A stretch of DNA of 64,000 nucleotides from an uncultured Mucispirillum sp. GTDB taxonomy: Bacteria > Chrysiogenota > Deferribacteres > Deferribacterales > Mucispirillaceae. Location of the stretch: assembly GCA_944325215.1 (NCBI GenBank), contig CALUZC010000007.1, positions 1 to 64,000 of the forward strand. The letters are read 5' to 3'. Below are positions 15,942-50,520 of this stretch, one piece after another; the stretch's first letter is position 1, and each line of letters starts with the position of its first letter. The notes under the pieces were generated by a model, which was given only the letters and a program-made list of their open reading frames with translations, did no database searches and was not told where the DNA came from. Both the position numbers and the translations under genes were made by a program.

Positions 15942-15974
15942 AGCCTGTGAGATATATTCCCACAGGCTTTTTTT
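15942..15974 (+). terminator. Terminator after the chemoreceptor pair
   Basis: AGCCTGTG (15942-15949) and CACAGGCT (15961-15968) form an 8-bp stem followed by seven T. It faces the convergent phage-like gene whose stop lies in the T-run. Confidence 0.85.
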
Positions 15975-16308
15975 AAAATATACTGGAGAATATGCCTTTT
16001 GTTGCTGTATTCATTAAATCACCTGCAATACCTTTATCATCTTCACCATAACCTATGCTTAAAAGCTTCATTTGGTCATTCCAGTAGTTATCTTCTGCCT
16101 GAGCCATAGCAGAGCCCATTGCTTTTGAGGTAACAGATGAATTAACTATGCCGCGACTGGCAAGGTTATTTAATGCTGTGCCACTTAAGTTTTCAAAATC
16201 TGCCATTCTAGTGTCACGGTCTGCTACTTTATCATACTGCTGCCTTTGTTTATTTTCAGCAGTATTTTCTCCAAATAATAGTTTATTTAATCCATCAAAA
16301 AATCCCAT
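15973..16308 (-). CDS. Small phage virion/ejection-like protein
   Basis: A 111-residue protein starting MGFFDGLNKLLFG, rich in Ala, Asn, Gln and Met, with helical stretches (ASRGIVNSSVTSKAMGSAMAQ) and a hydrophobic C-terminal end. No family can be named with confidence. Similar short Ala/Gln-rich proteins follow the tail-hub gene in podoviruses and act as internal or ejection proteins, and this gene sits exactly there, 13 bases after the tail gene with GGAGG before its ATG. Function is therefore inferred from position. Confidence 0.55.
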   Translation of the reverse strand: MGFFDGLNKLLFGENTAENKQRQQYDKVADRDTRMADFENLSGTALNNLASRGIVNSSVTSKAMGSAMAQAEDNYWNDQMKLLSIGYGEDDKGIAGDLMNTATKGIFSSIF

Positions 16309-16321
16309 TTATTTCCTCCAT

Positions 16322-18463
16322 TTATTTCCCTATGGTTGAATATTCTATGAATATATTATCAATAAAAAAATCACCATTATGGGTTATATCTATTTGAATT
16401 TTATTGACTTTTTTTGTTATAAAATATTTGTGTTTAGTTTGACCTGATTTTAATATTAAATTATAGCTCATATTATTAAGCAAGAGAGTAAAATTTTTAT
16501 CCTCACTTAGCACAGGGGTATATACTGTTATGGCTTTTATAACCATATTTAAATTACTTTTTACTTCCTTATAAACCACATTAATAGTATCTAATTTATT
16601 TTTATTTTCAATGTGCAGTTTACCACTGTTATCAAGAGCATAAGTTATATAATTACCATTATAAATCTCTAATATTTGTTTATAGTTTGTTTTATTATTT
16701 AATGTATAGATTGAATAGCCGCCTAAAGTATTAGAATATTCAAAAATATAATCATTATGGGTAAACATTAATGTATTTCTATTATTAATAAGGCATATAT
16801 CTACCACATTTTTATCTTTTATAATCTTTTGATAATCTGATAAGAAAAAATCACCATAATATTCTGTGGCACTAATTTTTTTTATACCTGAAGCTGCTCC
16901 AAAAATAATAGATGAACCATAAGTTATTGCCCTGCTTGTAACTTTATCTACTTCACCTAGTTTTGAAACAATCCAGTTTGGGTAACTGCCTGCAAGACGG
17001 TATATATTGCCGTTATCTTTAAATATAATAATACTGTCTAATACTACAACGGCATAAGTTATTCTTCCACCATCTTTATATCCAATTTCTACAAACAATG
17101 CATCTAAATCTGTGCCCCAAGCCCAGTTATAAAAATCACCAATTCCACTGAAATATAAAGATGAACCCTGCGGCACTACAAGCCTGCCGTTTTGAATTAA
17201 AAGGCATGGTATATTTTCCATTTCAGGTGAAACATCTACATAAAATATACCGTTATAGTTTGCCACATAAAGTCTGTTATTGTTTATTGTTATAGTAGAT
17301 GATGAAGCATTATTTTCTGGTGGGTTTATATAATCTAGAAGCACCAGTTTATTTTGTGAGTATTCATATATCATAACTGTTTTTGAAGCATTAATATGCT
17401 TTGCAGTTGCTGAAAAATAGCAAAGTAAAGCACCATTTACATAAAATACATTTTGTAAAAAAATGGTATTAATAAAATCTATAAATAATGTGGCGGATAT
17501 ACTAAATGATGAGCCGTTAAAATAAAGCTTATAAAGTGATGATTTTACTTGTGCCATAGATGAGTCTGTTTCATTAATAAGCAAAAATATTTCATTATTA
17601 AAAACTCTAATATATTTCTGCCCATATGTTCCAAGCCCCTTATTACAATAAACCGGATACCTTTTAATACTTTTATTTAAAGTATTAAATGCAGCTACTT
17701 CATATGTAGTATTATTGGTAAGGTTTAAAAGCTCATTTCCATAAGCTGCTGTAAAACGTGTGTTAAAGTTTTGGGCAGAAATATCGGCATACATTATAAT
17801 TTCATCGTTTGATATAATGTATATATTTCTATAATCTCCAGCAAATAATGTATTATTGCACACATAAAAATCAAGAGTTGTTAAGTTTGCATCTATAATT
17901 TTTACATTGCTTGAGCCTTCCACCATATATCCAACACCTCTACTGTCTGAAAAATAAAGGCGTGAGCTAAAATACATAAGCGAGTTTGCAGGAGTAAAAT
18001 CACTTTGACGAGGAGATAACCTTTGCCATGAAAAAGGTGCTAATGAATACGTTATTTTATTAATAGAGCCGTCATTTTTTAAATGATAAATATTATATGT
18101 GCTTGCAATAAAAATTCCGTCTTGGTTACTTATAATATCACATGGTACAGCATTATTTTCAATATTATATCTTTTATTGTTAGTAATATCATAAACCCCA
18201 CCGTTGTAGGTTGCAAAAAGGCATTGTTTTCCATTATAATGAACATTATAAAGCCTTGAGAAAACCATGTTTTTAAAATATTCCATAGTATCAAACAAAT
18301 ATGAACCAGAAAAAGAGTTTATATCTTCATTATAAATGACACCTGAAATATGGCACGCCTGATTATCCTTTATATATTCGCCACTTATAGTATTGCACAT
18401 TCCACTAATGGGTTTATAAAGTTTAGCTACTGAATTTTTTGAAGTATATGATGATTTTTTCAT
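16322..18463 (-). CDS. Podovirus-type tail hub/nozzle protein
   Basis: A 713-residue protein made of many short beta-strand repeats, as in propeller-like tail nozzle proteins (T7 gp12, P22 gp10). The most telling stretch is RLVVPQGSSLYFSGIGDFYNW, split here as RLVVPQGSS and SGIGDFYNWAW, the 'RL..S..GD..NF' block that nozzle proteins share; the following domain (YAVVVLDSIIIFKDNGNIYRL, then GSSIIFGAASGIKKI) also fits. No signal peptide. It overlaps the adaptor gene by four bases (ATGA), so the two are translationally coupled. No capsid, portal, terminase or integrase gene is adjacent. Assignment rests on pattern, size and gene order, not a search. Confidence 0.6.
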   Translation of the reverse strand: MKKSSYTSKNSVAKLYKPISGMCNTISGEYIKDNQACHISGVIYNEDINSFSGSYLFDTMEYFKNMVFSRLYNVHYNGKQCLFATYNGGVYDITNNKRYNIENNAVPCDIISNQDGIFIASTYNIYHLKNDGSINKITYSLAPFSWQRLSPRQSDFTPANSLMYFSSRLYFSDSRGVGYMVEGSSNVKIIDANLTTLDFYVCNNTLFAGDYRNIYIISNDEIIMYADISAQNFNTRFTAAYGNELLNLTNNTTYEVAAFNTLNKSIKRYPVYCNKGLGTYGQKYIRVFNNEIFLLINETDSSMAQVKSSLYKLYFNGSSFSISATLFIDFINTIFLQNVFYVNGALLCYFSATAKHINASKTVMIYEYSQNKLVLLDYINPPENNASSSTITINNNRLYVANYNGIFYVDVSPEMENIPCLLIQNGRLVVPQGSSLYFSGIGDFYNWAWGTDLDALFVEIGYKDGGRITYAVVVLDSIIIFKDNGNIYRLAGSYPNWIVSKLGEVDKVTSRAITYGSSIIFGAASGIKKISATEYYGDFFLSDYQKIIKDKNVVDICLINNRNTLMFTHNDYIFEYSNTLGGYSIYTLNNKTNYKQILEIYNGNYITYALDNSGKLHIENKNKLDTINVVYKEVKSNLNMVIKAITVYTPVLSEDKNFTLLLNNMSYNLILKSGQTKHKYFITKKVNKIQIDITHNGDFFIDNIFIEYSTIGK

Positions 18464-19017
18464 AATGCAAACCTGTTATCCCTTTGTAATGGATATGAGC
18501 CATATTTTGAAAGGGTAGTTTTTATAATCATATTTGAAAGCTGCAACAATTCCTTTTCTTCTTTATCCATATTAAATTCAAGGCGAGATAAGGCTTTTAT
18601 AACAGTATATAAGTATAGATAGTCTATATATGATGATGGCAGGTTTATTTCATCATCAACCCCATATCTATCAAATTCTTTTATATAATAAATATCTGCA
18701 TTATGATTTGGCAGCACAATACTATTGTTAAGTATAAAGTAGCCAAAGTTATTATCATATTCATTTTTTAAAGGTATTATCATATTATCAATTATAATCT
18801 TATGTATCTCTAGTAAATCATCAGGCACAGGGCATGTATTTAATGGGGAGTGTAAAAGAGTAATATTAAATTTTACCCTGTTTGATAGTAAAATCATTTC
18901 AAGACTTGAAAGTCCATTATGGATATATGATAAAAGCTCATCGTCACTAAATTCAAGTGCTGATGTATCATTTATTTTAATTCTAATTTTTTCTATTAAA
19001 TTATTTATTGTTTTCAT
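18460..19017 (-). CDS. Podovirus-type head-tail adaptor protein
   Basis: A 185-residue, mainly helical protein starting MKTINNLIEKIRIKINDTSA, then FSDDELLSYIHNGLSSLEMI, a beta-rich centre (PVPDDLLEIHKIIIDNMIIPL) and a helical end (PSSYIDYLYLYTVIKALSRL). This matches the layout of gp4 of P22 and gp11 of T7: a DNA-end-facing helical bundle with 'D..LL.Y.N.A...' near the N-terminus. These adaptors join the portal to the tail. It is the first gene of a three-gene minus-strand module and diverges from ispG across 207 bases. Cytoplasmic, no membrane segments. Confidence 0.6.
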   Translation of the reverse strand: MKTINNLIEKIRIKINDTSALEFSDDELLSYIHNGLSSLEMILLSNRVKFNITLLHSPLNTCPVPDDLLEIHKIIIDNMIIPLKNEYDNNFGYFILNNSIVLPNHNADIYYIKEFDRYGVDDEINLPSSYIDYLYLYTVIKALSRLEFNMDKEEKELLQLSNMIIKTTLSKYGSYPLQRDNRFAL

Positions 19018-19224
19018 AATATTCTCCGTTTTTATTTATATTATTTATAAATTATTAGCCTGTGTCCGTTATGTCTTTTATGTCATAAAATATATATGTT
19101 TAGTTATAAAGGTATAATAATGCTTATATTTATAAAGATATTTAAAATAATCAGTTGATTTTATTACTTTTTATATGCTAAAGTATGGAAAATATTTTTT
19201 AAAATGATTTAGGTATAAATATTA

Positions 19225-20271
19225 ATGAAAAGCAGAGTGATAAAAGTAGGCAGTTTATCTTTAGGTGGTGATAATCCTATATATATCCAGTCTATGACAA
19301 ATACTGATACTAGAGATGTGGAAAAAACAGTAGAGCAGATTTTAGCTTTAGAAAAAGCAGGCTGTGAGATTATTCGCTGTGCTGTTTTAGATAGCAGTGC
19401 AGCTGCTGCATTAAAAGATATAAAAGATAAAATACATATTCCATTAATAGCAGATATTCATTTTGATTATAAGCTTGCTATTAAATCAATAGAATCAGGT
19501 GCAGACTGCATAAGAATTAACCCGGGTAACCTTGGTGGCTATGAAAAATTAAAAATAGTAACAGATGCATGTAAATCAGCAGGGGCTGCCATTAGAGTAG
19601 GGGTTAATTCTGGCTCACTGGAAAAAGATTTGCTTGAAAAATATGGGGTGTGTGCAGAGTCTATTGTAGAATCTGCCTTAAGAAATATTAGATATTTATA
19701 CGATTTAAATTTTGATAATTTTAAAGTATCATTAAAATCAAGCTCTGTTCCTATTACTATAAAAGCATATCAGCTTTTTGCAGAAAAGGATAATTCTCCA
19801 CTACATGTAGGTGTTACAGAATCTGGCACTATATTTTCCGGCACTATAAAATCAGCTGTTGGCATTGGTGCAGTTTTAGCTTCAGGCATAGGCGATACTT
19901 TACGTGTGTCTTTAACTGGTGATGTACTTGATGAAGTAAAGGTGGGCTGGCAAATATTATCTTCTCTTGATTTAAGAAGAAAAGGTCCAGAAATTATATC
20001 ATGCCCAACTTGTGGCAGAACTGAAATCAATTTAATTGAGCTTGCAAATACTGTAGAAAATATGCTGCAAACTTCTAATAAAATTATAAGTGTTGCCGTT
20101 ATGGGCTGTGCTGTAAATGGTCCTGGTGAAGCTAGAGAAGCAGATTATGGTATAGCAGGCGGCATAAAGCAGGGGCTTATCTTTAAAAAGGGGCAGATAA
20201 TAAAAAAAGTAGATGAAGAAAAGCTAATAGATGAATTTGCAAAAATATTACAAAATGATGGTGTAATATAA
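19225..20271 (+). CDS. ispG: 4-hydroxy-3-methylbut-2-enyl-diphosphate synthase
   Basis: A 348-residue IspG (GcpE) of the short bacterial type. The TIM-barrel start is intact (NPIYIQSMTNTDT, PLIADIHFDY, CIRINPGN) and the iron-sulfur domain has its three cluster cysteines, C260 and C263 in SCPTCGR and C295 in GCAVNGPGEA, plus the usual glutamate. It performs the penultimate step of the MEP isoprenoid pathway, reducing MEcPP to HMBPP. The ATG lacks a strong Shine-Dalgarno sequence. It ends three bases before a metal-binding lipoprotein gene, so the transporter is likely expressed with it. Confidence 0.96.
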   Translation: MKSRVIKVGSLSLGGDNPIYIQSMTNTDTRDVEKTVEQILALEKAGCEIIRCAVLDSSAAAALKDIKDKIHIPLIADIHFDYKLAIKSIESGADCIRINPGNLGGYEKLKIVTDACKSAGAAIRVGVNSGSLEKDLLEKYGVCAESIVESALRNIRYLYDLNFDNFKVSLKSSSVPITIKAYQLFAEKDNSPLHVGVTESGTIFSGTIKSAVGIGAVLASGIGDTLRVSLTGDVLDEVKVGWQILSSLDLRRKGPEIISCPTCGRTEINLIELANTVENMLQTSNKIISVAVMGCAVNGPGEAREADYGIAGGIKQGLIFKKGQIIKKVDEEKLIDEFAKILQNDGVI

Positions 20272-20274
20272 ATT

Positions 20275-21177
20275 ATGAAAAAGTTATATGTATTATCTAT
20301 AATAATATTAGTTATTGTAACAGCAGCAGGCTGTAAAGTGAAAAGTTTTGAACAAAAAGACAGGTCTATAATTATTTGTTCCAATGAAATTATTGATGAT
20401 TTAGTAAACACTATTGGTGGAGATTTTATTAAGACTAATATTGCCATTAGAAAAGGTAATGACCCACACTCATATACAGCTACAGAACGCGATATTATTA
20501 GTATAACAGATTCTTCCCTTATTATATATAACGGTGGTGGTTTAGAGGGCAGGCTTGAATGGGCTTTAGGTAAAATTGGTAATATTACACCTGCTATATC
20601 TATTATGAAAAATATTCCTGAAGAAAAATTTATATATAAAGATGATGTGCTAAATCCGCATATTTGGCATGATGCAATGTTGTGGAAAAGTGTAGCTATA
20701 TTTATTGCTGATAATCTTGCTACAATGAATGAAGAAAATCACCAAATATATTACCAAAATGAAGAAATCGTGCTATATACATTAGAAAAATTAGATAAAT
20801 ATATAAAAGAACAGGTAGCACTTATTCCTGCTGAAAAACGTATATTAGTTACTGAGCATGATGCATTTGCCTATTTTGGCAGAGCATATGGCTTTGAAAC
20901 ATTATCTATGCAGGGGGTAAGCACATATTCGGAAGTATCTTCAATTGATATAAATAATTTAGCAGATATTTTAATAGAAAAAAATGTGGATACTATCTTT
21001 TTAGAAGCCACTGTGCCAGATAGAAATATTAGGCTTTTACAAGCTACATTAAAAGCCCAAGGTCACTCTGTTAAAATTGGCGGCATATTATATTCAGATA
21101 CTTTAGGGAATAATAATACATACGATAAAATGATGCGTCATAATATTGATACAATAGTTAAAGCGTTATCAAAATAA
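20275..21177 (+). CDS. Metal ABC transporter substrate-binding lipoprotein
   Basis: A 300-residue cluster A-I (TroA/ZnuA/MntC type) binding protein. A lipoprotein signal ends at VTAAGC (Cys20), so it is anchored in the membrane facing the periplasm. Metal ligands can be seen in order: His in DPHSYT, His in NPHIWHD, Glu/His in VTEHDAFAYFG and Asp in YSDTLG. The backbone helix and the second lobe are complete. Manganese, zinc or iron is likely; the ligand set alone does not decide. It is followed by the ATPase and two permease genes. Confidence 0.9.
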   Translation: MKKLYVLSIIILVIVTAAGCKVKSFEQKDRSIIICSNEIIDDLVNTIGGDFIKTNIAIRKGNDPHSYTATERDIISITDSSLIIYNGGGLEGRLEWALGKIGNITPAISIMKNIPEEKFIYKDDVLNPHIWHDAMLWKSVAIFIADNLATMNEENHQIYYQNEEIVLYTLEKLDKYIKEQVALIPAEKRILVTEHDAFAYFGRAYGFETLSMQGVSTYSEVSSIDINNLADILIEKNVDTIFLEATVPDRNIRLLQATLKAQGHSVKIGGILYSDTLGNNNTYDKMMRHNIDTIVKALSK

Positions 21178-21214
21178 TTAATAAATTATCTAAAATAATA
21201 TATGGAATAGGCAA

Positions 21215-22021
21215 ATGATAAGAACATACTCATCACAAGAACATATAGAACAGTTAAATATTGCTGTTAAGGTGGAAAATGTTACAGTTGAATATAAAGG
21301 TAAACCAAACCTTTTTAATGTAAATATGGAAGTTCCATGCGGAGTGCTTTTAGCTGTTCTTGGTCCTAATAATTCAGGAAAAACCACATTACTAAAAACA
21401 ATGGCAGGCATAGAAAAACCAACAGCAGGTAATGTTTATATTTATTCAAAACCAACTCATGCTGCAAAAAATGATTTAGCTTATGTTCCTGAAAGAAATA
21501 TGGTTAACTGGGATTTTCCAATAAGCCTTTTTGACCTTGTTTTAATGGGTTCTTACAACAGGCTTAGACGGGTAGAACACCCTAAAAAGAAAGATAAGGT
21601 AATAGCTTGGGAAGCATTAGAAAGAGTGGGCCTTGAAAAATTAGCTAAAAAAAGTATATGTGATTTATCTCGTGGAGAAAAACACAGAGCATTAATTGCA
21701 AGGGCATTAGTGCAGGACGCTAGAATTTATGTTATGGACGATCCTATGGTGGCAGCCGATGAAGAAAGTATAAATATTATAGTGGAAGTGCTTCAGGAAT
21801 TGAGAGCAAAGAAAAAAACTGTAATAGTGTCACACCATGAGTTTGTAACAATTCCTAGGTATTTTGATATGGTTGCACTTTTAAATGTTAAACTTTTAGG
21901 TATGGGCAAAACAGAAGATATATTAACTGAAGAAAACTTTGAAAAAACTTATGGAATGAGTGCTGGTATGATTAAAAATATAAGACTTTATATGGACGAA
22001 AGCCATGATAGAAATAAGTGA
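21215..22021 (+). CDS. Metal ABC transporter ATP-binding protein
   Basis: A 268-residue ABC ATPase. Walker A is GPNNSGKT (50-57), the signature is LSRGE (151-155) instead of LSGGQ, Walker B is IYVMDD (171-176), and the switch His lies in IVSHHE. The residue after the Walker B aspartate is Asp176 where the catalytic glutamate is expected, an unusual conservative swap that may slow hydrolysis. About 18 residues precede the ABC core. Overlaps the next permease gene by 17 bases, so assembly with TroC/D-type permeases is expected. Confidence 0.9.
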   Translation: MIRTYSSQEHIEQLNIAVKVENVTVEYKGKPNLFNVNMEVPCGVLLAVLGPNNSGKTTLLKTMAGIEKPTAGNVYIYSKPTHAAKNDLAYVPERNMVNWDFPISLFDLVLMGSYNRLRRVEHPKKKDKVIAWEALERVGLEKLAKKSICDLSRGEKHRALIARALVQDARIYVMDDPMVAADEESINIIVEVLQELRAKKKTVIVSHHEFVTIPRYFDMVALLNVKLLGMGKTEDILTEENFEKTYGMSAGMIKNIRLYMDESHDRNK

Positions 22022-22907
22022 TACTTTTATTTTTAATACTATGCTAAAAAGTGCTTCTTTTTTAGGATTAAGCAGTGGTATGCTTGGTGTTATACTTTCA
22101 TACCAAAGAAGAAGCATAGAAATTAATGCTCTTGCTGCTGGTTCATTTGTAGGTATATTAGTATTTTATCTTTTAGCAGGGGTTGGTGTATATATTAGTC
22201 CTTATATATTTGAGCAGATAGATAAGTATGTATTTTCATTTATTGGCTCTATTGTTGGAGCATTATTTATGATAGTGCTGCTTCATATATTATACAAAAC
22301 AGACAGGCTCCATATGCATATAATCCAAAGTTTAATGACAGCCGTTATGCTTGGTGTTGGCATAACTTTAATAACATATATTCGCCATACAGGTGGTTCC
22401 TTAGATTCTGGTATTGATATATATCTTTTTGGCGAAAAAACATCATTAACAAGTGAAGAATTTGTATTTTTAAGAGTAATAGCTACAGCTATTGTTGTTA
22501 TTTTATTACTCTATTTTTCACGATTAAAAATAGTAGTTTTTAATAAAGATATAGCTTTAACAACACATTTTCATACATCATTTTATTATTTTTTAGTAAA
22601 TATTATGGTTATATGTTTAGTAGCATTTTCTATTAAGATTATGGGAGTATTTTTATCTGTTTCTATATTTTTAATTCCTGCAGTTACTGCAAGGTTATGG
22701 AGTAACAGGTTATTTATTATCATGATAACAGCAGGGTTAATTGGTGCAGTTAGTGGAGCTTTAGGAACTACAGTTTCGGGGCTTTTAGGTAATATTACAC
22801 TAGGTATTTCCATTACATTAATACTTGCTGTTATTTTCATTATATCACTTATAATATCTCCATATAAAGGGATTTTGGGTAAAAAGCTTTATTCAGGAGG
22901 TAAGTAA
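22005..22907 (+). CDS. Metal ABC transporter permease (TroC/MntB type)
   Basis: A 300-residue integral membrane protein of the ABC-3 family with about eight or nine hydrophobic segments; hallmark stretches are MLKSASFLGLSSGMLGVILSY near the start and VSIFLIPAVTARLWSNRLF near residue 220. It forms the channel with its partner encoded next. It overlaps the ATPase gene by 17 bases and abuts the second permease (stop at 22905-22907, ATG at 22908), which indicates a tightly coupled operon. Confidence 0.88.
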   Translation: MIEISDTFIFNTMLKSASFLGLSSGMLGVILSYQRRSIEINALAAGSFVGILVFYLLAGVGVYISPYIFEQIDKYVFSFIGSIVGALFMIVLLHILYKTDRLHMHIIQSLMTAVMLGVGITLITYIRHTGGSLDSGIDIYLFGEKTSLTSEEFVFLRVIATAIVVILLLYFSRLKIVVFNKDIALTTHFHTSFYYFLVNIMVICLVAFSIKIMGVFLSVSIFLIPAVTARLWSNRLFIIMITAGLIGAVSGALGTTVSGLLGNITLGISITLILAVIFIISLIISPYKGILGKKLYSGGK

Positions 22908-24032
22908 ATGTTTTCAATGGAGTTTGAATTAGTATTAGTAATAACATTATCGGCTGTTACATGCTCAATACCAGGGGCATTTTTAGTAATGCGTAAAAAT
23001 TATTATGCGGCAGATACATCAACCCGTTCTGCTATGTTTGGTATTTCTATTGCATTAATATTTTCAGCGTTTTTATCTTCGCCATTAGTAATAATATTTG
23101 GTTCTCTAACTGCTATTTTAGGTATGTTCCTTATAAAAAAAATTAAAGGAATAACGCATTTTAGGTCAAAGGGTATATCTATTATTGTTTCATCAACTTT
23201 ACTATGTTTAGGTATTTTAATAGCTACTAATTTTTCGTTTAATAAATCATCTGAATTTGATTTATCAATTATTTATCTTGGAGAAACAGCATTTACTTAT
23301 TTTAACAGAGTGCGTATTGCTGGAGTTGATATAGGCTCTTATGCTTTTTATTCTATTTTATTAGTAATGATTATAAATATAGTTATAGTTACTGTATTTT
23401 ATAAAGAGTTTAAAATAGATGGTGTAGATAAAAATTATGCAGCCTCCATTCAAATGAAGGAAGAAACAATTGATTTATTACTAGTTGTAATGACGGCTTT
23501 AAGTGTATCTGTATCATTTCAAACAGCAGGTATTTTTATGACTACTGCTTTTATATTAGGGCCTGCTGCTGCTGCACTTTTTTACACTAAAAGGCTTTCT
23601 ACACTTGCTTTTGTATCCGTTTTTATTTCCTCTATTGCCTGCCTAGTAGGTTTTAGCATAGCATGGCCTAATTATGTATCTATTTCTGGTTCAATTGTAT
23701 CGTTTATTGGAATATTGTTTATATTATCAGTGCTTTGTGCACCAGAAGAAGGCATTATAAAAAAATATTTTGATTATTTAGCCGAACAAAAAAAACTTGA
23801 TGAATATATTATTTTAGATATATTAAATACTCAAAGCATTGATAATTCTTCTAGTTCCATAAATGAAATACTTGCTGTCTCATTAAACTGGAAAGTGTTG
23901 CGAGTATCATATATTGTAAATAAATTAAAAGCAGAAAAGAAGCTGGAAGATATTAATGGTAAAGTTATTATTACAGATGAAGGTAAAAATATTGTAGAGC
24001 ATTTTATGAAAACACAAAATTGTTTTCATTAA
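22908..24032 (+). CDS. Metal ABC transporter permease with C-terminal winged-helix-like domain
   Basis: A 374-residue permease of the ABC-3 family. Residues 1-275 hold the membrane domain (AAALFYTKRLSTLAFV and preceding FILGPAAA are the conserved region). About 95 residues follow (EEGIIKKYFDYLAEQKKLDEY... LRVSYIVNKLKAEKKLE... VIITDEGKNIVEHF) that look like a small winged-helix domain resembling DtxR-type regulators. Such tails occur on TroD-like permeases of spirochetes and others. GGAGG lies before ATG 22908. The tail may bind metal or DNA and feed back on transport; this is inference. Confidence 0.85.
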   Translation: MFSMEFELVLVITLSAVTCSIPGAFLVMRKNYYAADTSTRSAMFGISIALIFSAFLSSPLVIIFGSLTAILGMFLIKKIKGITHFRSKGISIIVSSTLLCLGILIATNFSFNKSSEFDLSIIYLGETAFTYFNRVRIAGVDIGSYAFYSILLVMIINIVIVTVFYKEFKIDGVDKNYAASIQMKEETIDLLLVVMTALSVSVSFQTAGIFMTTAFILGPAAAALFYTKRLSTLAFVSVFISSIACLVGFSIAWPNYVSISGSIVSFIGILFILSVLCAPEEGIIKKYFDYLAEQKKLDEYIILDILNTQSIDNSSSSINEILAVSLNWKVLRVSYIVNKLKAEKKLEDINGKVIITDEGKNIVEHFMKTQNCFH

Positions 24033-24052
24033 GCGATAATAAGGAGCAGTAT

Positions 24053-24358
24053 ATGGCAAAAATAAGATTAGTTAAATTAATAAGTGGCGACTTTGTTGTA
24101 GGGGTTGACGAAGAAGAAAAGAAAGGCATAAAAAATATAGGTTCTTTACAGTTTGTACCAGCAGAAAATGGTGGTATGTCTGTGGCATTAATCCCTTATG
24201 GTTTTCCTTTTGAAGATGAATTTAAAGGGTTTATACCAAATGATAAAATCCTTTATGAAATAGAAAAAGTGCCAGAAGATTTACAAAATAAATATACTGA
24301 AGCAACATCAGATATTAAATTAATATCAGGCTCAAACAACGGTAATATAATATTATAG
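24053..24358 (+). CDS. Conserved small hypothetical protein
   Basis: A 101-residue protein starting MAKIRLVKLISGDFVVGVDE; ATG 24053 is chosen over 24020 because GGAG lies eight bases upstream and the longer start overlaps the permease. It is predicted beta-rich with a segment VALIPYGFPFEDEFKGFIPNDKI that looks SH3- or Sm-like. No family is recognised. It starts 20 bases after the permease and ends one base before the Nudix gene, so it belongs to the same transcript. Confidence 0.65.
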   Translation: MAKIRLVKLISGDFVVGVDEEEKKGIKNIGSLQFVPAENGGMSVALIPYGFPFEDEFKGFIPNDKILYEIEKVPEDLQNKYTEATSDIKLISGSNNGNIIL

Positions 24359-43287: not shown

Positions 43288-43293
43288 ATAGCA

Positions 43294-43328
43294 AAAGAAA
43301 GGCTTATTTTTTAAGCCTTTCTTTATTT
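43294..43328 (+). terminator. Terminator-like hairpin between paralogs 2 and 3
   Basis: AAAGAAAGGCTTA (43294-43306) and TAAGCCTTTCTTT (43312-43324) pair over 13 bp with a short T-rich loop and a T-rich tail. It could also attenuate into paralog 3. Confidence 0.75.
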
Positions 43329-43342
43329 TAAGTTATTATATT

Positions 43343-44317: not shown

Positions 44318-44714
44318 TAGTATACAAATAATAGAAACTTGTAACAATACGTTATAAAGTTGCGACTTTATGTATGTTTGTATAGGAAACAATTTTAAAG
44401 ATAATTATTATAAAATAATTGTATAATTTAGTAAAGCAGCTGTTATAATTATGATGATAATATGTGTAATAAGCAAATTTTATTAATCTCGAAAAATAAA
44501 ATAAATGAACTCATTACAAATAAAAATATCTATATAATTGGTATAGAATTATAAACTTACTTCATATTATATGTTGCAGTTCTTTGTGGATATGATAGAG
44601 TAATAGCTAGTTTACTAAAAATTTGCACATATATAATAATCTATACTTTAATATCTTTATATGGTTTATATTATAGTTAGATAATGAAAAATCTTAATTT
44701 ATTCAAGGATATAT
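44318..44714 (+). other. 397-base intergenic region
   Basis: I see no gene here. A perfect 7-bp hairpin ATAAAGT-TGCG-ACTTTAT at 44354-44371 may end the preceding transcript. The rest is AT-rich; no tRNA, riboswitch or repeat matching other parts of the window was noticed. Confidence 0.5.
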
Positions 44715-45155
44715 ATGCAGGTAAAAATTAATATGGAAAATCTGAAAGTTGAATTTTTCTCTGATAAAACGAAAGAAACTATATATATAAGAGATATTGT
44801 TTTTGTGCAGGAACAAGGTTTTATTGATGAATATGATGAACTTGACTGTAAAAGTACACATATTTTAGTAAGTGATAAGAATCTTCCAATAGCAACAGGC
44901 AGATTTTACAAACATAAAGATAACAGCTGGATAGTAGGCAGATTTGCAGTTATTAAAGAGTATAGGCATATTGGTATTGGAAGTTTTTTAATGCAAAAGA
45001 TAGAAGAAAAAATAAAAGAAAATGGTGGTGAACTTATAGAGCTTTCTGCACAGCTGCAGGCAAAAGGATTTTATGAATCACTAGGCTATAAAGCTTTAGG
45101 CAATATATATTATGACCAGCATGCAGAACATATTCATATGGAAAAAAAATTATAA
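44715..45155 (+). CDS. GNAT family N-acetyltransferase
   Basis: 146 residues, a single GNAT domain. The acetyl-CoA loop is EYRHIGIGSFLMQKIEEK (R/Q-x-x-G-x-G/A form), preceded by the strand WIVGRFAVIK and followed by QLQAKGFYESLGYKALG. A helix with QEQGFIDEYDELD resembles the ElaA/YjcF group. AAGGA lies six bases before ATG. The acceptor is unknown. Confidence 0.82.
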   Translation: MQVKINMENLKVEFFSDKTKETIYIRDIVFVQEQGFIDEYDELDCKSTHILVSDKNLPIATGRFYKHKDNSWIVGRFAVIKEYRHIGIGSFLMQKIEEKIKENGGELIELSAQLQAKGFYESLGYKALGNIYYDQHAEHIHMEKKL

Positions 45156-45217
45156 AAAAGACTTTATCAAAAAAAATATATGTGTTAAAGTGGACAATAG
45201 TCAAGATGAGGTTTTAA

Positions 45218-45898
45218 ATGGTAAATATAATAATTCTTTCTGTAGTTATTGTTATTTTAATAGGAATGTTGGTATATTTTTTCGTTAATAGAAAGAAGAT
45301 TAAAATAAAGCTGTTAGAAGAAGAAGCTGCAAAAGGTAACCCTGCCACATTACTGGCATTAGGTTTAATGTTTTATTCTGGTGTTAAAATAGATGAAGAT
45401 AAAGAAAAAGGTATTAAGTATATTAAGCAGGCGGCAGAATCTGGTAATGCTCAAGCCCAATATTTATACAGTGGTATTATTCTAGGTTCAAATGAAAACC
45501 AAGAGCCTACAAAAGAGCAGTTATCAGAAGCTGCTTTATGGATAGAAAAATCAGCTGAAGGTGGTTTTCTAACAGCTATAACAACCCTTGCAAATATGTA
45601 TGCAGAAGGCAAAATAATCCCAAAAAATGTTAAAAAAGCACAATATTATTTTCAAAAAGCAGCACTTATGGGTGATGTTCAGTCGCAGGTAACTGTTGCT
45701 GGTTTTAAGCATTTTAGTATTGACGGCAATAAAAAGGAAGCATATGCATGGTATAAGGTAGCAGAACAAAATGGTTCAGAATATGCAAAAGAAACAGCAG
45801 AAAAATTGCTTTCAGAATTAAGTGATGAAGATAAGCTTCAGGCATATAAAATAGCTGATGAATATATAATTAAATACGGAAAAGCACAAGTGCATTAG
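45218..45898 (+). CDS. Sel1-like repeat protein with N-terminal membrane anchor
   Basis: 226 residues: one membrane helix (3-22), then four or five Sel1/TPR-like repeats (ALGLMFYSGVKIDEDKEKGI, AAESGNAQAQYLYSG, SAEGGFLTAITTLANMYAEG, and AALMGDVQSQ). These helical repeats mediate protein contacts; an anchored form is usually periplasmic or faces the cytoplasm near envelope complexes. GAGG precedes ATG 45218. Confidence 0.85.
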   Translation: MVNIIILSVVIVILIGMLVYFFVNRKKIKIKLLEEEAAKGNPATLLALGLMFYSGVKIDEDKEKGIKYIKQAAESGNAQAQYLYSGIILGSNENQEPTKEQLSEAALWIEKSAEGGFLTAITTLANMYAEGKIIPKNVKKAQYYFQKAALMGDVQSQVTVAGFKHFSIDGNKKEAYAWYKVAEQNGSEYAKETAEKLLSELSDEDKLQAYKIADEYIIKYGKAQVH

Positions 45899-45914
45899 TT
45901 TTGGTAGCAGTTTT

Positions 45915-46343
45915 ATGGTGCAGAGATATATTTTATCAGACTATTCAAAGCTTTTTGATATTTGGGAAAGAGCAGTTAAAAAAACTCATCATTTTTTATC
46001 AAAAGAAAGTTATGAGCATATTCGTTTGATTTTGCCATCATATTTTCAGAAAGTAGAAGTCTATGTTTATAAAAAAGCTGGTAAAGATGTAGCATTTATG
46101 GGTGTAAAAGATGATAAGCTTGAAATGCTTTTTTGCGATCCAGATTATTTTAGGCAGGGTATAGGTTCATTTATGATTGATTATGCACTTCATTTTTTAA
46201 ATATAAAATATGTTGATGTAAATGAGCAGAATTTACAGGCCATAGAGTTTTATAAACACCATGGTTTTAAAGAAGTAGCAAGAACAAAAAGTGATAATTT
46301 TGGATATCCAATAATTCATCTTGCCCATGAAAGTGGTATGTAG
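45915..46343 (+). CDS. GNAT family N-acetyltransferase (YjaB-like)
   Basis: 142 residues. The pattern KKTHHFLSKESYEHIRLILP...VYVYKKAGKDVAFMGVKDDKLEMLFCDPDYFRQGIGSFMIDYA and the end NLQAIEFYKHHGFKEVART is that of small GNATs such as YjaB; the CoA loop is RQGIGS. It lies 16 bases after the Sel1 gene and ends one base before the M23-like gene's ATG. Confidence 0.8.
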   Translation: MVQRYILSDYSKLFDIWERAVKKTHHFLSKESYEHIRLILPSYFQKVEVYVYKKAGKDVAFMGVKDDKLEMLFCDPDYFRQGIGSFMIDYALHFLNIKYVDVNEQNLQAIEFYKHHGFKEVARTKSDNFGYPIIHLAHESGM

Positions 46344-46344
46344 T

Positions 46345-47088
46345 ATGAGAACTTTATTAACTTTTATACTTACTTTTATCTTATGTATATTTATAATAAC
46401 AGAAGCATTTGCTCAAGATAATCAATGCACAAAGCCTGTTATATTTCCGTTACTTTCAAAGCCTGTTAATGATATTGGTCAAGAATATGATAATTATGAC
46501 TGGCGAAGTGAACACGGTGCAAATCAGGCAGTATATAAAAGCTATAGAATACGTAAAAGCAGTAAGAAAAATATTACAAAAAAAGCATTTCATGCAGCAC
46601 GAGATTTATATACAGATGTATATAATGATAAAGGAAATTATGGATTATTAAAGTCTAGAAATTATGTTAGGGCAGTAAGTGAAGGTAAAGTTTTAGAAGT
46701 TGGCTATTTTTATGCAGGAACTTATAAAGTAACAGTGCAGCATACAACATGTGATGGAAGAAGTTTCATTATAAGATATGGTGAGTTAGACCCTGCAAGC
46801 ATAAAAGTTGCAGTTGGTGAAACTGTAAAACAAGGGCAGATTTTAGGCAGACCGGGTTTTTTATCTAAAAAAAATAAGAAAAAAGAAACTGTGCCAATAA
46901 ATGTAATAATGGATAAAGTTGTATTTATGCTTCACTTTGAATATTTTGCCAGTGGTGAGCTTAGTAACGAACCATTTTCTGAAGCCTTTAGTGATAATAG
47001 GTTTGATAGAAGAAAAGATCTTGATGACAGCTTAAGTATTTTAGAAGAAGGATATATTAATTCTTTTGGGGAGCCTGTGAAAAAATGA
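46345..47088 (+). CDS. Exported M23-like peptidase, variant catalytic site
   Basis: ATG 46345 gives a signal peptide (cleavage after AFA, residue ~23) and 247 residues; the in-frame ATG at 46321 lies inside the preceding gene. The LytM fold is visible: FHAARDLYTDV (zinc ligands H83, D87), AVSEGKVLEVG, the strand IIRYGELD and MLHFEYF (ligand H197). The canonical histidines of YxHL and HLHFE are replaced by Glu147 and Met195. M23 enzymes cut peptidoglycan crossbridges; this variant keeps the metal triad but lacks the standard catalytic pair. It overlaps the next gene by four bases. Confidence 0.75.
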   Translation: MRTLLTFILTFILCIFIITEAFAQDNQCTKPVIFPLLSKPVNDIGQEYDNYDWRSEHGANQAVYKSYRIRKSSKKNITKKAFHAARDLYTDVYNDKGNYGLLKSRNYVRAVSEGKVLEVGYFYAGTYKVTVQHTTCDGRSFIIRYGELDPASIKVAVGETVKQGQILGRPGFLSKKNKKKETVPINVIMDKVVFMLHFEYFASGELSNEPFSEAFSDNRFDRRKDLDDSLSILEEGYINSFGEPVKK

Positions 47089-47621
47089 AAAAATTACTAA
47101 TATATGTTATAACGCTGCTTTCTTTTACAAATATATATGCTTCTCCCTATGCTGATGATTACCTTTATGAAGATATACTAGAGTATATTGAAAACCCAGC
47201 AAAATATTCAAATAATTATGTTAATGGATATGTAAATAATAACCCTGATATAATAGTGGGAGCTTTTATAGAAAAGGCTTTTTCTGTTTATGAAAAAGAA
47301 GAAAAATATACGCCTGATTTTAAAAGCTGTGGGGAAGGCTGCTATAAAGATGATAATGCACATGATATTTTAAATGCATATCATAAGTTTTTTTATATGT
47401 TTGCTATTGCTGAAGAAATAACTTCTGTATTAATACAAAACCCACAAGAAAATGATAATATTGAATACACTCTAAAAAATAAAAAAATAAAGTATAAATG
47501 GAATAATAAAAACAAATTAGTTATAAATATAGACAGCAACACTGTTGAATTTATAAAACAAAATAAAGGTGTTGTTATAAAAACAGATATGAAGTCTTTA
47601 AAAAAATACAGGCTGAATTAG
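47085..47621 (+). CDS. Exported hypothetical protein, coupled to the M23-like gene
   Basis: 178 residues with a signal peptide (KKLLIYVITLLSFTNIYAS, cleavage near residue 19). The mature part is helical (YLYEDILEYIENPAKYSNN), with one cysteine pair (SCGEGC), and ends in a basic tail. I recognise no family. The ATGA overlap with the peptidase gene indicates coupled translation and a likely 1:1 partner in the periplasm; inhibitor, immunity protein or cofactor are all possible. Confidence 0.65.
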   Translation: MKKLLIYVITLLSFTNIYASPYADDYLYEDILEYIENPAKYSNNYVNGYVNNNPDIIVGAFIEKAFSVYEKEEKYTPDFKSCGEGCYKDDNAHDILNAYHKFFYMFAIAEEITSVLIQNPQENDNIEYTLKNKKIKYKWNNKNKLVINIDSNTVEFIKQNKGVVIKTDMKSLKKYRLN

Positions 47622-47633
47622 TAAAGGTGATAT

Positions 47634-48263
47634 ATGAAAAAATTATTGTTATTATTTATTTTCATAACTGCTACAAACAGCTTTGGCTATAATGAACAAG
47701 ATATTGATTTATCTAACCATTCAAACCAGCATGGAGTTATTTTCCAAGCCTTAGATAAAAAGGAATACTATAAAAATATTACATACAGCACCATAAGGGA
47801 AAGTAAATGTTTAGGAGCCGATTATAAAACCATAAAAAGAACGGCTAATATTTTAAAGGAAAAAGAACAGCCTTTCTGGGTTTATAAATACTGCAAAAGC
47901 AGTGAATATGAATATAACACGACAAATATTATAGAAGCATATAACAGCTATCGTTTTGATTTAAATAAGCGTTTAATAAATATGAAAGAGTATCAAATAT
48001 TAGATAATATAGTATCATATCTTCCTGTAAATATAAAATCAGGGAGCAATTATTTATATTATCTTGGCATGAGAAATAATATTATAGAATGGCAGGATAA
48101 AAATAATGAGTTAAATATTACACTACCTATTATGTTTAGCGGCCTTATTACAAAAATGACATTGGAAAAAGATAAAGTAAAAGTATATGAAATATTTACA
48201 TATGACAGGCCTGACAATATGCCAAAAGAAAATGAAGGGTATAAAGATTTATTTGTTAAATAA
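47634..48263 (+). CDS. Exported hypothetical protein, third gene of the M23-like run
   Basis: 209 residues, signal peptide (KKLLLLFIFITATNSFGY), then a mature chain of ~190 residues with two cysteines (KCLGADY and KYCKSSE). No family is recognised. AAAGGTGAT precedes ATG 47634, 12 bases after the previous stop. Its proximity suggests a job with the peptidase and its coupled partner. Confidence 0.65.
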   Translation: MKKLLLLFIFITATNSFGYNEQDIDLSNHSNQHGVIFQALDKKEYYKNITYSTIRESKCLGADYKTIKRTANILKEKEQPFWVYKYCKSSEYEYNTTNIIEAYNSYRFDLNKRLINMKEYQILDNIVSYLPVNIKSGSNYLYYLGMRNNIIEWQDKNNELNITLPIMFSGLITKMTLEKDKVKVYEIFTYDRPDNMPKENEGYKDLFVK

Positions 48264-48428
48264 ATCATACAAATCATATTTATTATATTAATAAAACTAT
48301 TTTATATGTAACAATTTTTTAAATCTGAAAAGAGCTATCTATTTTATATTGTTCAAAAATTTTTCATAAAATAATTTGACTTATTATATTTAATAATGTA
48401 TAACTCCATATAAAAGGGGGATATATTT

Positions 48429-48680
48429 ATGCAGGATTTTTTATTTGATAAAGTTAATATTATACCAGAAGCTAAAAGAAGAAGCAGAAGCCGTGGTCGT
48501 GGTTTTTTCGGTGGTATATTATCAACAATTGGTGCTGTTATTATAATAATTTTGGCTGTAATAATGCTGCCTTTTATATTAATTAGAAATAGAAGAAACC
48601 CTTCCAATGATGCATTAATAAACGATAATAATATTAATAATACTCAAAGTCATAATGATAAGATAAATCTAAAAAAATAA
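48429..48680 (+). CDS. Small single-membrane-segment protein
   Basis: 83 residues: a strongly basic stretch (KRRSRSRGRGFF), one membrane helix (GAVIIIILAVIMLPFILI), then an Asn-rich tail. AAGGGGG lies about ten bases before ATG. The function is unknown. It ends before a strong terminator, so it is separate from the lysis cassette. Confidence 0.6.
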   Translation: MQDFLFDKVNIIPEAKRRSRSRGRGFFGGILSTIGAVIIIILAVIMLPFILIRNRRNPSNDALINDNNINNTQSHNDKINLKK

Positions 48681-48713
48681 CATCTACTTATATTCTCATG
48701 ATATTAAACCAAT

Positions 48714-48745
48714 AAACCACCTAAAATTTAGGTGGTTTTTCTTTT
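48714..48745 (+). terminator. Terminator before the lysis cassette
   Basis: AAACCACCTAAA and TTTAGGTGGTTT (48714-48738) form a 12-bp stem with a one-base centre, followed by a T-rich tail. Confidence 0.88.
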
Positions 48746-48818
48746 TTCTGACATATGGGACAAAACGGACATAGTATATTTTGCTACTGCTATAAATAGT
48801 AGTAAAGCAGGAGGCAAA

Positions 48819-49187
48819 ATGGATAAAATTTATACAGGAATTATAGTCGTTCTTGTTATCATAATTATTTCTTTATCTACTTATATGCTGATTAAATCAG
48901 GAATATATAAAAATATGATTAATGAACTGCAAACAGAAAATAAGTCATTAATTACAAGGTTAAGTAGTGCAGAAAGCTATATTGATATACAGAATTTAAA
49001 AATATCAGAACACAGTAAGAATATGGAAAAAGCAGAAGAAATATACACATTAAAAATAAAATCAATAAATGAAAAATATTCTGCTTTAGAAAAAAAATAT
49101 AAAAATATCAGCTTACTACAGTGTAATGAAGTATTAAAGATAATAGATAATAACCAACGGAGGTATATATATGGTTACACAGATTAA
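48819..49187 (+). CDS. Inner-membrane spanin-like (Rz-like) protein
   Basis: ATG 48819 with GGAGG upstream; the longer ORF start at 48732 lies within the terminator. 122 residues: a membrane helix (~5-26) then a long heptad-patterned coiled coil (INELQTENKSLITRLSSAES... ISEHSKNMEKAEEIYTLKI). This is the layout of phage i-spanins, which span the periplasm. It overlaps the next gene by 17 bases, as Rz/Rz1 pairs often do. Sequence similarity is not strong by eye; the call is from topology and neighbours. Confidence 0.65.
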   Translation: MDKIYTGIIVVLVIIIISLSTYMLIKSGIYKNMINELQTENKSLITRLSSAESYIDIQNLKISEHSKNMEKAEEIYTLKIKSINEKYSALEKKYKNISLLQCNEVLKIIDNNQRRYIYGYTD

Positions 49188-49578
49188 AGAAACAGTAAAA
49201 AAATTATATGAAAAAATAAAAGAAAAAATAATGAAACTATATGAAGTTATAAAAAATTTCATAAAAAATACAGCAGAAGATTTTTCAATAATTGATGTAG
49301 AAGAAGGGCAGGCTCGCTGGAGTTTTAACTGGTGGGTTCAAAAAAGTTTTAAGTGGATAACAGCCATTATTCTTGCAGCAGCCGCTCTTTTTATATGGGG
49401 CTGTTCTACACATAATGGCAGTGTAAAGTATTACCCTGTTAATATTCCTGTAAGCTGTCAAATAGATATGCCTGAAAAGCCAGTATATAGTGAAAATATT
49501 GTTGTTACAAATTTAAGTATTTTATCATACGCTTCAAAGTTGGAATCAGCCTTAAAAGCGTGCAGAGGTGATAAATGA
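49171..49578 (+). CDS. Outer-membrane spanin-like (Rz1-like) lipoprotein
   Basis: 135 residues. A hydrophobic helix ending ALFIWGC provides a lipobox-like cysteine at ~residue 78, and the downstream part (YYPVNIPVSCQIDMPEKPVY... NLSILSYASKLESALKACRGDK) matches the usual end of o-spanin-type proteins, where a short helix with a final Cys follows a proline-rich region. Unusually, ~58 residues of charged amphipathic sequence precede the hydrophobic segment; an internal ATG at 49231 would shorten it by 20. It overlaps the holin gene by four bases. Confidence 0.6.
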   Translation: MVTQIKETVKKLYEKIKEKIMKLYEVIKNFIKNTAEDFSIIDVEEGQARWSFNWWVQKSFKWITAIILAAAALFIWGCSTHNGSVKYYPVNIPVSCQIDMPEKPVYSENIVVTNLSILSYASKLESALKACRGDK

Positions 49579-49910
49579 TAGAGAAAGCATTTAATTTATC
49601 TGCAGAAATATGGCAATGGATATGGCTGTTTTTAGTATCTTTTACAGGTGGTGTGGTAGGTTTTATTACAAAAATATCACCTACATTAAAAGGGCGTTCT
49701 TTTCGTTCTAAATTTGCCGCTCTTTGCATGGGTATGATAAACAGTATGTTTATAGCATATATTAGCTATGAAATATTATTAAGTGTTATTGATAATCATG
49801 GTCTTGCAGTAGCACTTTCAGGTATGGCAGCATTTACAGGAACAGACCTTTTAATCATAACGCAAAATAAAATTGTAGAACTTGTAAAAAGAAAAATTGA
49901 TAATATATAG
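49575..49910 (+). CDS. Phage holin-like protein
   Basis: 111 residues with three membrane segments (~12-32, 45-70, 75-92) and a charged C-terminus (KNKIVELVKRKIDNI), as in class I/III small holins. The block ALSGMAAFTGTDLLIITQN resembles the LydA/HP1-type holin end. Holins open the inner membrane for the endolysin. Overlaps the spanin-like gene by four bases. Its stop is eight bases before a truncated copy of the endolysin start. Confidence 0.7.
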   Translation: MIEKAFNLSAEIWQWIWLFLVSFTGGVVGFITKISPTLKGRSFRSKFAALCMGMINSMFIAYISYEILLSVIDNHGLAVALSGMAAFTGTDLLIITQNKIVELVKRKIDNI

Positions 49911-49917
49911 GGGGGGA

Positions 49918-49962
49918 ATGTTTAAATTATCAACACTATCCCAAGCAAAATTAAATACTTGT
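49918..49962 (+). repeat. 45-bp direct repeat, left copy
   Basis: It matches 50155-50199 with one mismatch (C versus T at the 24th base). The two flank a 192-base insertion. Confidence 0.92.
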
Positions 49963-49977
49963 ATTATAAAACAATAA
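49918..49977 (+). pseudogene. Truncated duplicate of the endolysin 5' end
   Basis: ATG 49918 has a GGGGGGG ribosome binding site and encodes MFKLSTLSQAKLNTC, identical to the intact endolysin's first 15 residues, then diverges (IIKQ) and stops at 49975-49977. The DNA match is 45 bases with one C/T mismatch. A structured repeat element follows, separating the truncated from the intact copy. Confidence 0.88.
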
Positions 49978-49978
49978 C

Positions 49979-50005
49979 AAAAAATCTGTCCGTAGATTTT
50001 TTGTT
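49979..50005 (+). terminator. Terminator-like hairpin between holin and endolysin
   Basis: AAAAAATCT (49979-49987), loop GTCCGT, AGATTTTTT (49994-50002), then GTTT. It lies inside the inserted segment and may stop transcription from the spanin-holin part. Confidence 0.6.
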
Positions 50006-50037
50006 TAGGCGAGCTTATGAAATAAATTCATTTAATA

Positions 50038-50131
50038 TCCAGCCACTTTTTCTATTTCCTACGCTACTCGCTAGGGAAAAAGTGTCCTCGCATAAAACGC
50101 TCGTCTTACTAAAGAGCCACTTCCTGTGGCT
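50038..50131. repeat. Dispersed structured repeat element, copy A
   Basis: It starts TCCAGCCAC; the stem CACTTTTTC (50044-50052) pairs with GAAAAAGTG (50076-50084). It then has TCCTCGCA...CGCTCGTC to 50105 and a hairpin AGCCAC-TTCCT-GTGGCT (50115-50131). Copy B at 32625-32724 has the same plan; the changed position in stem 1 is compensated on the other arm. Confidence 0.82.
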
Positions 50132-50154
50132 GGAAAAAAAGTAATGGAGGAAAA

Positions 50155-50199
50155 ATGTTTAAATTATCAACACTATCTCAAGCAAAATTAAATACTTGT
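50155..50199 (+). repeat. 45-bp direct repeat, right copy
   Basis: It forms the start of the intact endolysin gene and matches 49918-49962 with one mismatch. Confidence 0.92.
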
Positions 50200-50520
50200 C
50201 ATAGTGATTTAATATTATTGATAAATGAAGTAGCAAAAACAGAAAAATGTGCTGTTATATGTGGTCATCGTGGAAAAGCAGAGCAGGAAAAAGCGTATAA
50301 TAGTGGTACAAGTCGTGCAAAATGGGGGCAGTCAAAACATAATCAAATGCCGTCTTTAGCAGTAGATGTAGTGCCCCTGCCTTTAGACTGGGATAATATA
50401 GAAAGTTTTGAAAAACTTGGTAATATTATTATGGAAAAAGCAAAAGAACTTAAAATAAATATTAAATGGGGCAGAGACTTTACAAAACTAAAGGATTACC
50501 CACACTTTGAACTGGTATAA
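50155..50520 (+). CDS. M15-family endolysin (L,D-peptidase type)
   Basis: 121 residues. Zinc ligands of M15C peptidases are in place: H62 (QSKHN), D71 (AVDVVPLP) and H117 (PHFEL), and GHRGKAEQEKAYNSGTSRA is the usual loop. It resembles the L-alanyl-D-glutamate peptidase endolysins of phages. There is no signal peptide, so a holin is needed; one lies just upstream. TGGAGG precedes the ATG. An insertion has separated it from the holin gene and left a 45-bp duplicate of its beginning. Confidence 0.85.
   Translation: MFKLSTLSQAKLNTCHSDLILLINEVAKTEKCAVICGHRGKAEQEKAYNSGTSRAKWGQSKHNQMPSLAVDVVPLPLDWDNIESFEKLGNIIMEKAKELKINIKWGRDFTKLKDYPHFELV

Follow-up and report, generated by a model that had tools for sequence, protein, structure and literature searches.

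Few gene transfer agents (GTAs) are known outside Alphaproteobacteria. The ancestor of RcGTA (Rhodogtaviriformidae) was a long-tailed phage. GTAs are defined by six features (PMC9662315), and the accessible part of that source places the RcGTA genes in five loci; the accessible part of another reports that in RcGTA the activator GafA binds the promoters of both the structural and the lysis genes (PMC6363796). FpGTA of Faecalibacterium prausnitzii is called the first GTA with podovirus-like morphology in the available portion of its description (PMC12946183), and our literature search found no other published podovirus-like GTA. Here we describe three sets of phage-type genes in Mucispirillum (Deferribacterota), a genus of the mouse gut of which strain ASF 457 is in culture (PMC5285517). 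Two of the sets lie in a 64,000-nucleotide stretch of an uncultured Mucispirillum genome (contig CALUZC010000007.1, positions 1 to 64,000), which we call the window. The three loci probably form a particle system that this genus domesticated from a podovirus and inherits vertically, and that most likely works as a GTA. The observations behind this view are gene content, genus-wide conservation, purifying selection, co-diversification with the host and a promoter element common to all three loci.

Results

The preliminary description of the window had placed seven phage-type genes in two clusters about 30 kb apart among chromosomal genes, and had suggested that both clusters belong to one inherited, dispersed particle system. 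All seven open reading frames (ORFs) were recovered at the same positions, and the genes around and between the two clusters, modules B and C, are ordinary-looking chromosomal genes. That description had also proposed looking elsewhere in the genome for portal, capsid and large terminase genes in a similarly isolated module. Such a module, module A, exists in the window genome (G000) on another contig, flanked by host genes. We compared 10 genomes of the genus, among them G000 and G006, a closed genome of 2,347,083 bases on one contig.

Module A encodes a small terminase subunit (TerS, 123 amino acids [aa]), a large terminase subunit (TerL, 478-483 aa), a portal protein (579-591 aa), a small protein (66-92 aa), a scaffold-like protein (228-239 aa) and a major capsid protein (MCP, 392 aa). 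It is present at least in part in all nine genus relatives and lies entire on one contig in six of the 10 genomes (L050-L054 and L056); elsewhere it is cut by contig ends or split over contigs. The portal was found in every genus genome, as a single frame in nine, and a single-copy MCP in nine. Outside the genus, none of 35 other genomes of the order has the MCP, save one 65-residue match at E = 5e-4. A search for the large terminase family phrog_2 matched all 10 genus genomes, some matches coming from prophages; the 478-483 aa class of TerL is complete in nine and a partial frame only in G005. The flanking genes of module A encode an FGE-sulfatase-like protein (L050:11528-12460; divergent from TerS, with matches in six genomes) and a lipoprotein-like protein with Big_2 domains (L050:3293-5263).

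Profile searches identified most module A products. With the G006 copies, Pfam matched TerS to GP3_package (E = 5e-14), the portal to SU10_portal (E = 6e-124) and the MCP to SU10_MCP (E = 4e-40), the last two above the family cut-offs, and gave no match for the small and scaffold-like proteins. PHROG families were matched by TerL (phrog_2, E = 1.4e-40), the portal (E = 1e-82) and the MCP (major head protein, E = 4e-17). Searched against the PDB, the portal profile matched seven distinct solved phage portal sequences, and the capsid profile matched the VP1 capsid structure (E = 1.9e-12). The portal, the MCP, the adaptor of module B (below) and the order of the head genes place module A and the adaptor in the SU10/VP1-type podovirus lineage. 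BLASTP of the small protein (82 aa) against its SU10 counterpart gave no match.

Module B, on the minus strand, begins with the adaptor gene (18460..19017, 185 aa), followed by a putative tail nozzle gene (16322..18463, 713 aa) and a gene for a conserved 111-aa protein (15973..16308). The AlphaFold model of the adaptor has a pLDDT score of 85.7, and Foldseek matched it to podovirus adaptors, including the KHP30 tail (E = 2e-8) and those of SU10, N4 and VP1. Its fold aligned with that of the Helicobacter pylori phage KHP30 over 179 residues (Z = 14.3, 3.9 Å) and with that of SU10 over 174 residues (Z = 13.4, 2.5 Å), the latter tied with several other podoviruses. PHROG matches of the window copy were weak (phrog_399, structural protein, E = 0.0039) and Pfam gave none; the G006 copy matched SU10_adaptor at E = 2.4e-4, below the sequence cut-off.

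The second gene is named a putative nozzle for its place after the adaptor and for a beta-propeller in a low-confidence model (mean pLDDT 55). The structural matches of this model are propellers of many kinds; proteins of the P22 gp10 type ranked 43 in the PDB and 9 and 33 in BFVD, among generic propellers, and none stood among the 50 matches listed in a further structure comparison. The nozzle matched no profile, and the PDB profile search was likewise empty. It has no support from sequence because hhalign of shallow family profiles against single podovirus proteins gave no significant match. The 111-aa protein had no convincing match in PHROG, Pfam or PDB profile searches. A pentatricopeptide repeat assignment, from a single 26-residue match in the PDB profile search, was judged spurious. 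From its gene position, the protein is possibly an internal or virion protein.

Module C, on the plus strand, carries four lysis genes. The i-spanin gene (48819..49187, 122 aa) overlaps the gene for an o-spanin lipoprotein (49171..49578, 135 aa); a holin (49575..49910, 111 aa) and an M15-type endolysin (50155..50520, 121 aa) follow. The holin matched phrog_2073 (E = 2.7e-16) and Pfam Phage_holin_3_3 (E = 5e-5, below that family's cut-off), and the endolysin matched phrog_465 (E = 2.6e-33) and Peptidase_M15_4 (E = 1.2e-6). The o-spanin matched the unannotated family phrog_2291 (E = 4.6e-11) and the Rz-like phrog_456 (E = 0.0023); the i-spanin had one weak match, to the Rz-like phrog_214 (E = 0.016). 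A GTG at 48732 could also start the i-spanin in the window and would put the promoter element inside the open frame; in the relatives, the start is the ATG equivalent to 48819, and the protein is 122 aa long in all seven genomes with module C. Thus the labels first given to the lysis genes stand on profiles, weakly for the i-spanin, and that of the adaptor on its fold; "nozzle" is a weaker label, and "internal protein" for the 111-aa product derives from position.

A second holin, 37-51% identical to that of module C, occurs in G000, G001 and G009. The copies in G000 and G009 lie in prophage-like stretches (L068, on contig C4 of G000, and L069, on contig C137 of G009), which have the same i-spanin, o-spanin and holin order; their holins are 37% and 51% identical to that of module C, respectively. 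Prophage cassettes of this kind are a probable origin of module C.

The first gene of each module is preceded by TTTTTCGGACATNACGGACA or a variant, a 9-bp direct repeat of GACATNNNG. The window genome has three tandem repeats at each of its three modules: at module B the element is GACATAAAAGACATAACGGACA (19063..19084, minus strand), and at module C it is GACATATGGGACAAAACGGACA (48750..48771, plus strand), with a TATA at 48791-48794. We examined 24 upstream regions (eight of module A, nine of B and seven of C) and 200 shuffles. CGGACA is present in all 24, starting 51-86 nt ahead of the start codon (mean of the shuffles 0.28, at most 2 of 24), and GACAN5GACA in 21 (mean of the shuffles 0.02, at most 1). 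Nine copies of module A, six of C and one of B have a TATA 16-21 nt after the repeats. GACAN5GACA occurs five times in the 64-kb window, four of them within the two elements (shuffle mean 0.46).

At the level of whole genomes, the pattern GACATNNNGGACA has 26 matches in the 10 genomes, of which 20 are module promoters; all three matches in both G006 and G009 are at modules, one per module in the closed G006. Five of the six other matches are inside ORFs and one (L092) lies in a short gap between two opposite-strand ORFs; none of the six is upstream of a recognizable phage gene. The reversed control pattern had more matches than GACATNNNGGACA in every genome, and the element is therefore rare rather than an effect of base composition. 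Scanning for the element with the TATA spacing gave five non-module sites, of which four fall within ORFs and the fifth (L134) overlaps the start of one. A third pattern, run on three genomes, gave 11 such sites, 10 inside ORFs and one between the holin and endolysin genes of the window. A fourth pattern, which does not cover the module B element of G000 or the module C elements of G006 and G003, gave five non-module matches in four genomes, with three mismatches each. Leaving aside these five matches, the scans found no fourth module with the same promoter element; a degenerate element would escape them.

Gene sets and their order recur across the genus. The nozzle is present as one copy in nine of the 10 genomes, eight of them full length without stops and that of G008 comprising residues 1-103 only, and in none of 29 other genomes of the order. 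Nine adaptor copies and eight of the 111-aa gene accompany it in conserved order, the latter in all eight copies of module B with a complete nozzle, the window's included. Among named genomes, all six loci retrieved with the nozzle profile are labelled Mucispirillum; a Brachyspira VSH-1 system, which composition had suggested, was dismissed on this ground. A close relative of the module C holin is present in seven of the 10 genomes, which are the seven high-quality ones, with the i-spanin, o-spanin and endolysin genes beside it each time. Because the same gene sets recur in this way, modules B and C are not chance assemblages.

The modules are far apart on the chromosome. Module B lies at about 863-866 kb of closed G006, module A at 1,044-1,050 kb and module C at 2,174-2,175 kb, spacings of 0.18 to 1.1 Mb. 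Beside the modules in G000 and G006, we recognized no gene for an integrase, for replication or for a repressor. Module C of G009 lies near ribosomal protein genes, as labelled by reading the sequence, and its usual neighbors are not beside it; either the module relocated and has persisted there, or this contig was wrongly assembled.

We also searched viral contigs with short-peptide seeds, which find close relatives only. One nozzle relative was found (L028) and none of the adaptor, 111-aa protein, MCP or TerL. On this IMG/VR contig (L028:8881-12136), a prophage of the myovirus type, as judged from its ORFs, runs straight into the nozzle gene; the match begins at residue 5, and the adaptor and promoter are missing. 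Either the prophage inserted into module B in a single strain, or the contig is chimeric. A scan of the viral contigs with the promoter motif listed at least 120 stretches.

The modules are under purifying selection, with ORFs mostly intact. We calculated median ratios of nonsynonymous to synonymous divergence (dN/dS) by the Nei-Gojobori method from pairs with dS of 0.05-1.5, excluding the split G000 portal, the G003 endolysin and the 82-aa gene. Medians were 0.077 for MCP, 0.096 for TerL, 0.086 for TerS, 0.128 for the portal and 0.36 for the scaffold in module A; 0.18 for the adaptor, 0.20 for the nozzle and 0.21 for the 111-aa protein in module B; and 0.26 for the i-spanin, 0.31 for the o-spanin, 0.062 for the holin and 0.19 for the endolysin in module C. 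The conserved synteny and purifying selection that the preliminary description had asked about in relatives are thus both present, with medians of 0.06 to 0.36.

The modules are also vertically inherited and co-diversify with the host. Median identities of module genes (up to 10; the holin and 111-aa genes were left out as too short) and of host genes (up to 18) correlated with rho = 0.85 over 36 genome pairs, which are not independent of one another. FastTree trees of modules A, B and C, of the three combined and of 19 host families all separate G000, G001, G005 and G007 (where present) from the rest with support of 1.000. Finer branches differ, for module B because it recombined together with its host flank in G001 and G007. 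Between these two genomes, synonymous divergence is 0.12 in the adaptor and nozzle genes and ranges from 0.02 to 0.21 over ispG and the four genes after it, but is 0.81-0.90 in the following two; the low-divergence stretch (window 16322-24032; L012/L013) marks recombination between species over at least 7 kb. Module B thus recombines jointly with its flank, like any chromosomal gene.

The neighbors of module B in the window are two chemotaxis receptor genes and ispG, and those of module C are genes of the acetyltransferase and Sel1-like types, genes for secreted proteins and an efflux operon. These labels come mostly from reading the sequence; Pfam supplied them for two of all the window neighbor genes.

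Discussion

The proposal of the preliminary description that modules B and C belong to one inherited, dispersed particle system is supported by module A, the shared promoter element, purifying selection and co-diversification with the host. It had named three findings that would speak against the idea: no similarity to phage proteins, absence from relatives and many inactivating mutations. None of these holds across the system; two genes are broken, each in a single genome.

If the three loci act together, module A would build the head and load DNA through TerS, TerL and the portal, module B would close the portal and form a short tail, and the holin, endolysin and spanins of module C would lyse the cell. 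One activator acting on the shared promoter element might switch on the three operons together, by analogy with GafA in RcGTA. With loci up to about 1.1 Mb apart, the system's own genes would probably not be packaged as one unit, and therefore host DNA would be packaged. Heads would fill with host DNA, lysis would release the particles and the particles would reach kin. Co-expression, particle formation, random packaging and delivery to other cells are thus what we would expect of this system.

Several observations weigh against such a working system. TerL had no match to Pfam (G006 copy) or to PDB profiles. The portal of the window genome itself is split into two ORFs (177 and 412 aa), and its length differs by one base from that in G001; the frame change may come from faulty assembly or from a genuine loss in this lineage. 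The nozzle of G008 is cut short at 103 codons, and the 111-aa gene was not seen there. The module B elements of G001, G005 and G007 keep CGGACA and lack GACAN5GACA, and module B has a TATA at the common spacing in G008 alone; other module B boxes, if any, are spaced differently. Nozzle, MCP and holin were not found in G002 (86% complete), nor was the holin in G005 (57% complete) or G008 (75% complete). No ejection protein or tail fiber gene was identified; one family was searched (phrog_4287), which gave nothing there or in its controls. Finally, the named relatives are nearly all metagenome-assembled genomes.

A 977-aa lipoprotein-like ORF follows the short nozzle of G008 (L017:1541-5015), the result of a deletion, an insertion or misassembly.

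In Bacillus, the likely role of the PBSX particle is to kill or lyse related or competing cells. A domesticated DNA-packaging particle kept in Mucispirillum for a similar purpose, delivering no usable DNA, is an unlikely but serious alternative. It would explain why no ejection or fiber genes were identified and why the lysis module is conserved under selection, and PBSX itself packages random 13 kb host fragments, according to the accessible part of one report (PMC7667829). However, the gene set is that of a DNA-packaging head with a short neck, and no long-tail or tailocin genes were recognized in the modules. Delivery to kin also gains from the recipient side. A ComEC-type protein would help a DNA recipient, and this family is present in all 10 genus genomes, although bacteria commonly have it, as do 10 of 14 control genomes.

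The remaining alternatives fare worse than a killing particle. Module C could have been captured independently from resident prophages for a host purpose of its own, with modules A and B forming a separate particle. The L068 and L069 cassettes and their holins fit such a capture, yet neither of these contigs has a GACATNNNGGACA match, while the element is present at module C in all seven genomes; we regard this history as very improbable. Slightly less credible still is that the three modules are the remains of a broken-up old prophage, with no joint function. The split G000 portal and short G008 nozzle would suit that account, but they are the exceptions: median dN/dS of 0.06-0.36 and ORFs intact in most genus genomes lead us to reject a decayed prophage, and one promoter element serves three operons whose gene order is kept. 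Least plausible is a phage satellite or fragmented helper-dependent element. In its favor, several genomes carry further terminase genes and contigs that resemble prophages; against it, the loci encode their own TerL, capsid, portal and lysis genes, are unlinked and genus-wide, and lack recognizable integrase, replication or repressor genes beside them in G000 and G006.

Returning to a domesticated particle system that transfers DNA, three of the six GTA features are observed here: caudoviricete-derived proteins, full endogenization over multiple loci, and vertical inheritance with co-diversification. A fourth, inability to package the whole genome of the element, would follow from the locus spacing of 0.18 to 1.1 Mb. 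The last two, encapsidation of mostly random host DNA and its delivery to other cells, are predictions for this system. Our literature search found no report of a GTA in Mucispirillum; the main text of the M. schaedleri genome paper, in the part available, does not mention prophage, terminase or capsid, and the accessible part of the transductomics paper does not name Mucispirillum.

We lean, with less assurance than for the system as such, toward a GTA lineage that is new, was domesticated independently from a podovirus of the SU10/VP1 type, is fixed throughout one genus of Deferribacterota, has three operons under a dedicated promoter element and is not the only such event in its phylum. Two class-level relatives with 1.3 Mb genomes (L302:4455-10184 in G048 and L303:6093-11790 in G049) carry an isolated syntenic cluster between host genes, with SU10_MCP (E = 3.5e-51), SU10_portal (E = 1.2e-19) and five small genes. 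Its dN/dS is 0.02 for the MCP and 0.07 for the portal, and its dS is 0.34-0.70 compared to 0.39-0.40 in two flanking genes. Possibly, this cluster is a second domesticated podoviral head. SU10-type MCP genes also occur on short contigs of order-level relatives (L304, L305 and L306, from G035 and G031), one near an i-spanin-like ORF recognized by reading the sequence; these may belong to a phage, a prophage or a GTA.

If our interpretation is correct, short-tailed phages have been domesticated repeatedly and gut commensals export DNA by such particles, which would offer a candidate route for DNA exchange within Mucispirillum. Searching for shared promoters, rather than for gene clusters, would be a way to find dispersed particle systems. 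The Mucispirillum host is presumably a diderm.

Among known systems, FpGTA is similar in being podovirus-like, in residing in a gut bacterium and in having a TerS-TerL-portal-scaffold-MCP operon apart from the operon with lysis genes, by about 125 kb in one strain (PMC12946183). It differs in its Gram-positive host and in having two operons, the second with baseplate, fiber and lysis genes, and its particles of about 40 nm with 8.4-8.9 kb of DNA have been demonstrated (PMC12946183). The Mucispirillum system has three operons and a shared promoter element, and its likeness to FpGTA is one of description. RcGTA, in the accessible parts of its descriptions, likewise has scattered loci, a separate lysis cassette and one activator for both promoters (PMC9662315, PMC6363796); it is alphaproteobacterial, in contrast to the Mucispirillum system with its SU10/VP1-type podoviral head and adaptor. 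BhGTA/VSH-1 of Brachyspira also occurs across its genus, co-diversifies and is probably dispersed, terL lying apart from the main cluster (PMC9662315). However, it has a 45 nm head and a flexible 65 nm tail, and clear caudoviricete similarity only for its endolysin (PMC9662315), whereas those of Mucispirillum have matches in known podoviruses. The portal, MCP and adaptor families are shared with Escherichia phage SU10 (KM044272) and Vibrio phage VP1, and SU10 also has the order TerL, portal, 78-aa protein, scaffold and MCP. SU10 and VP1 are free phages; in Mucispirillum, the corresponding genes are distributed over unlinked modules of the host chromosome.

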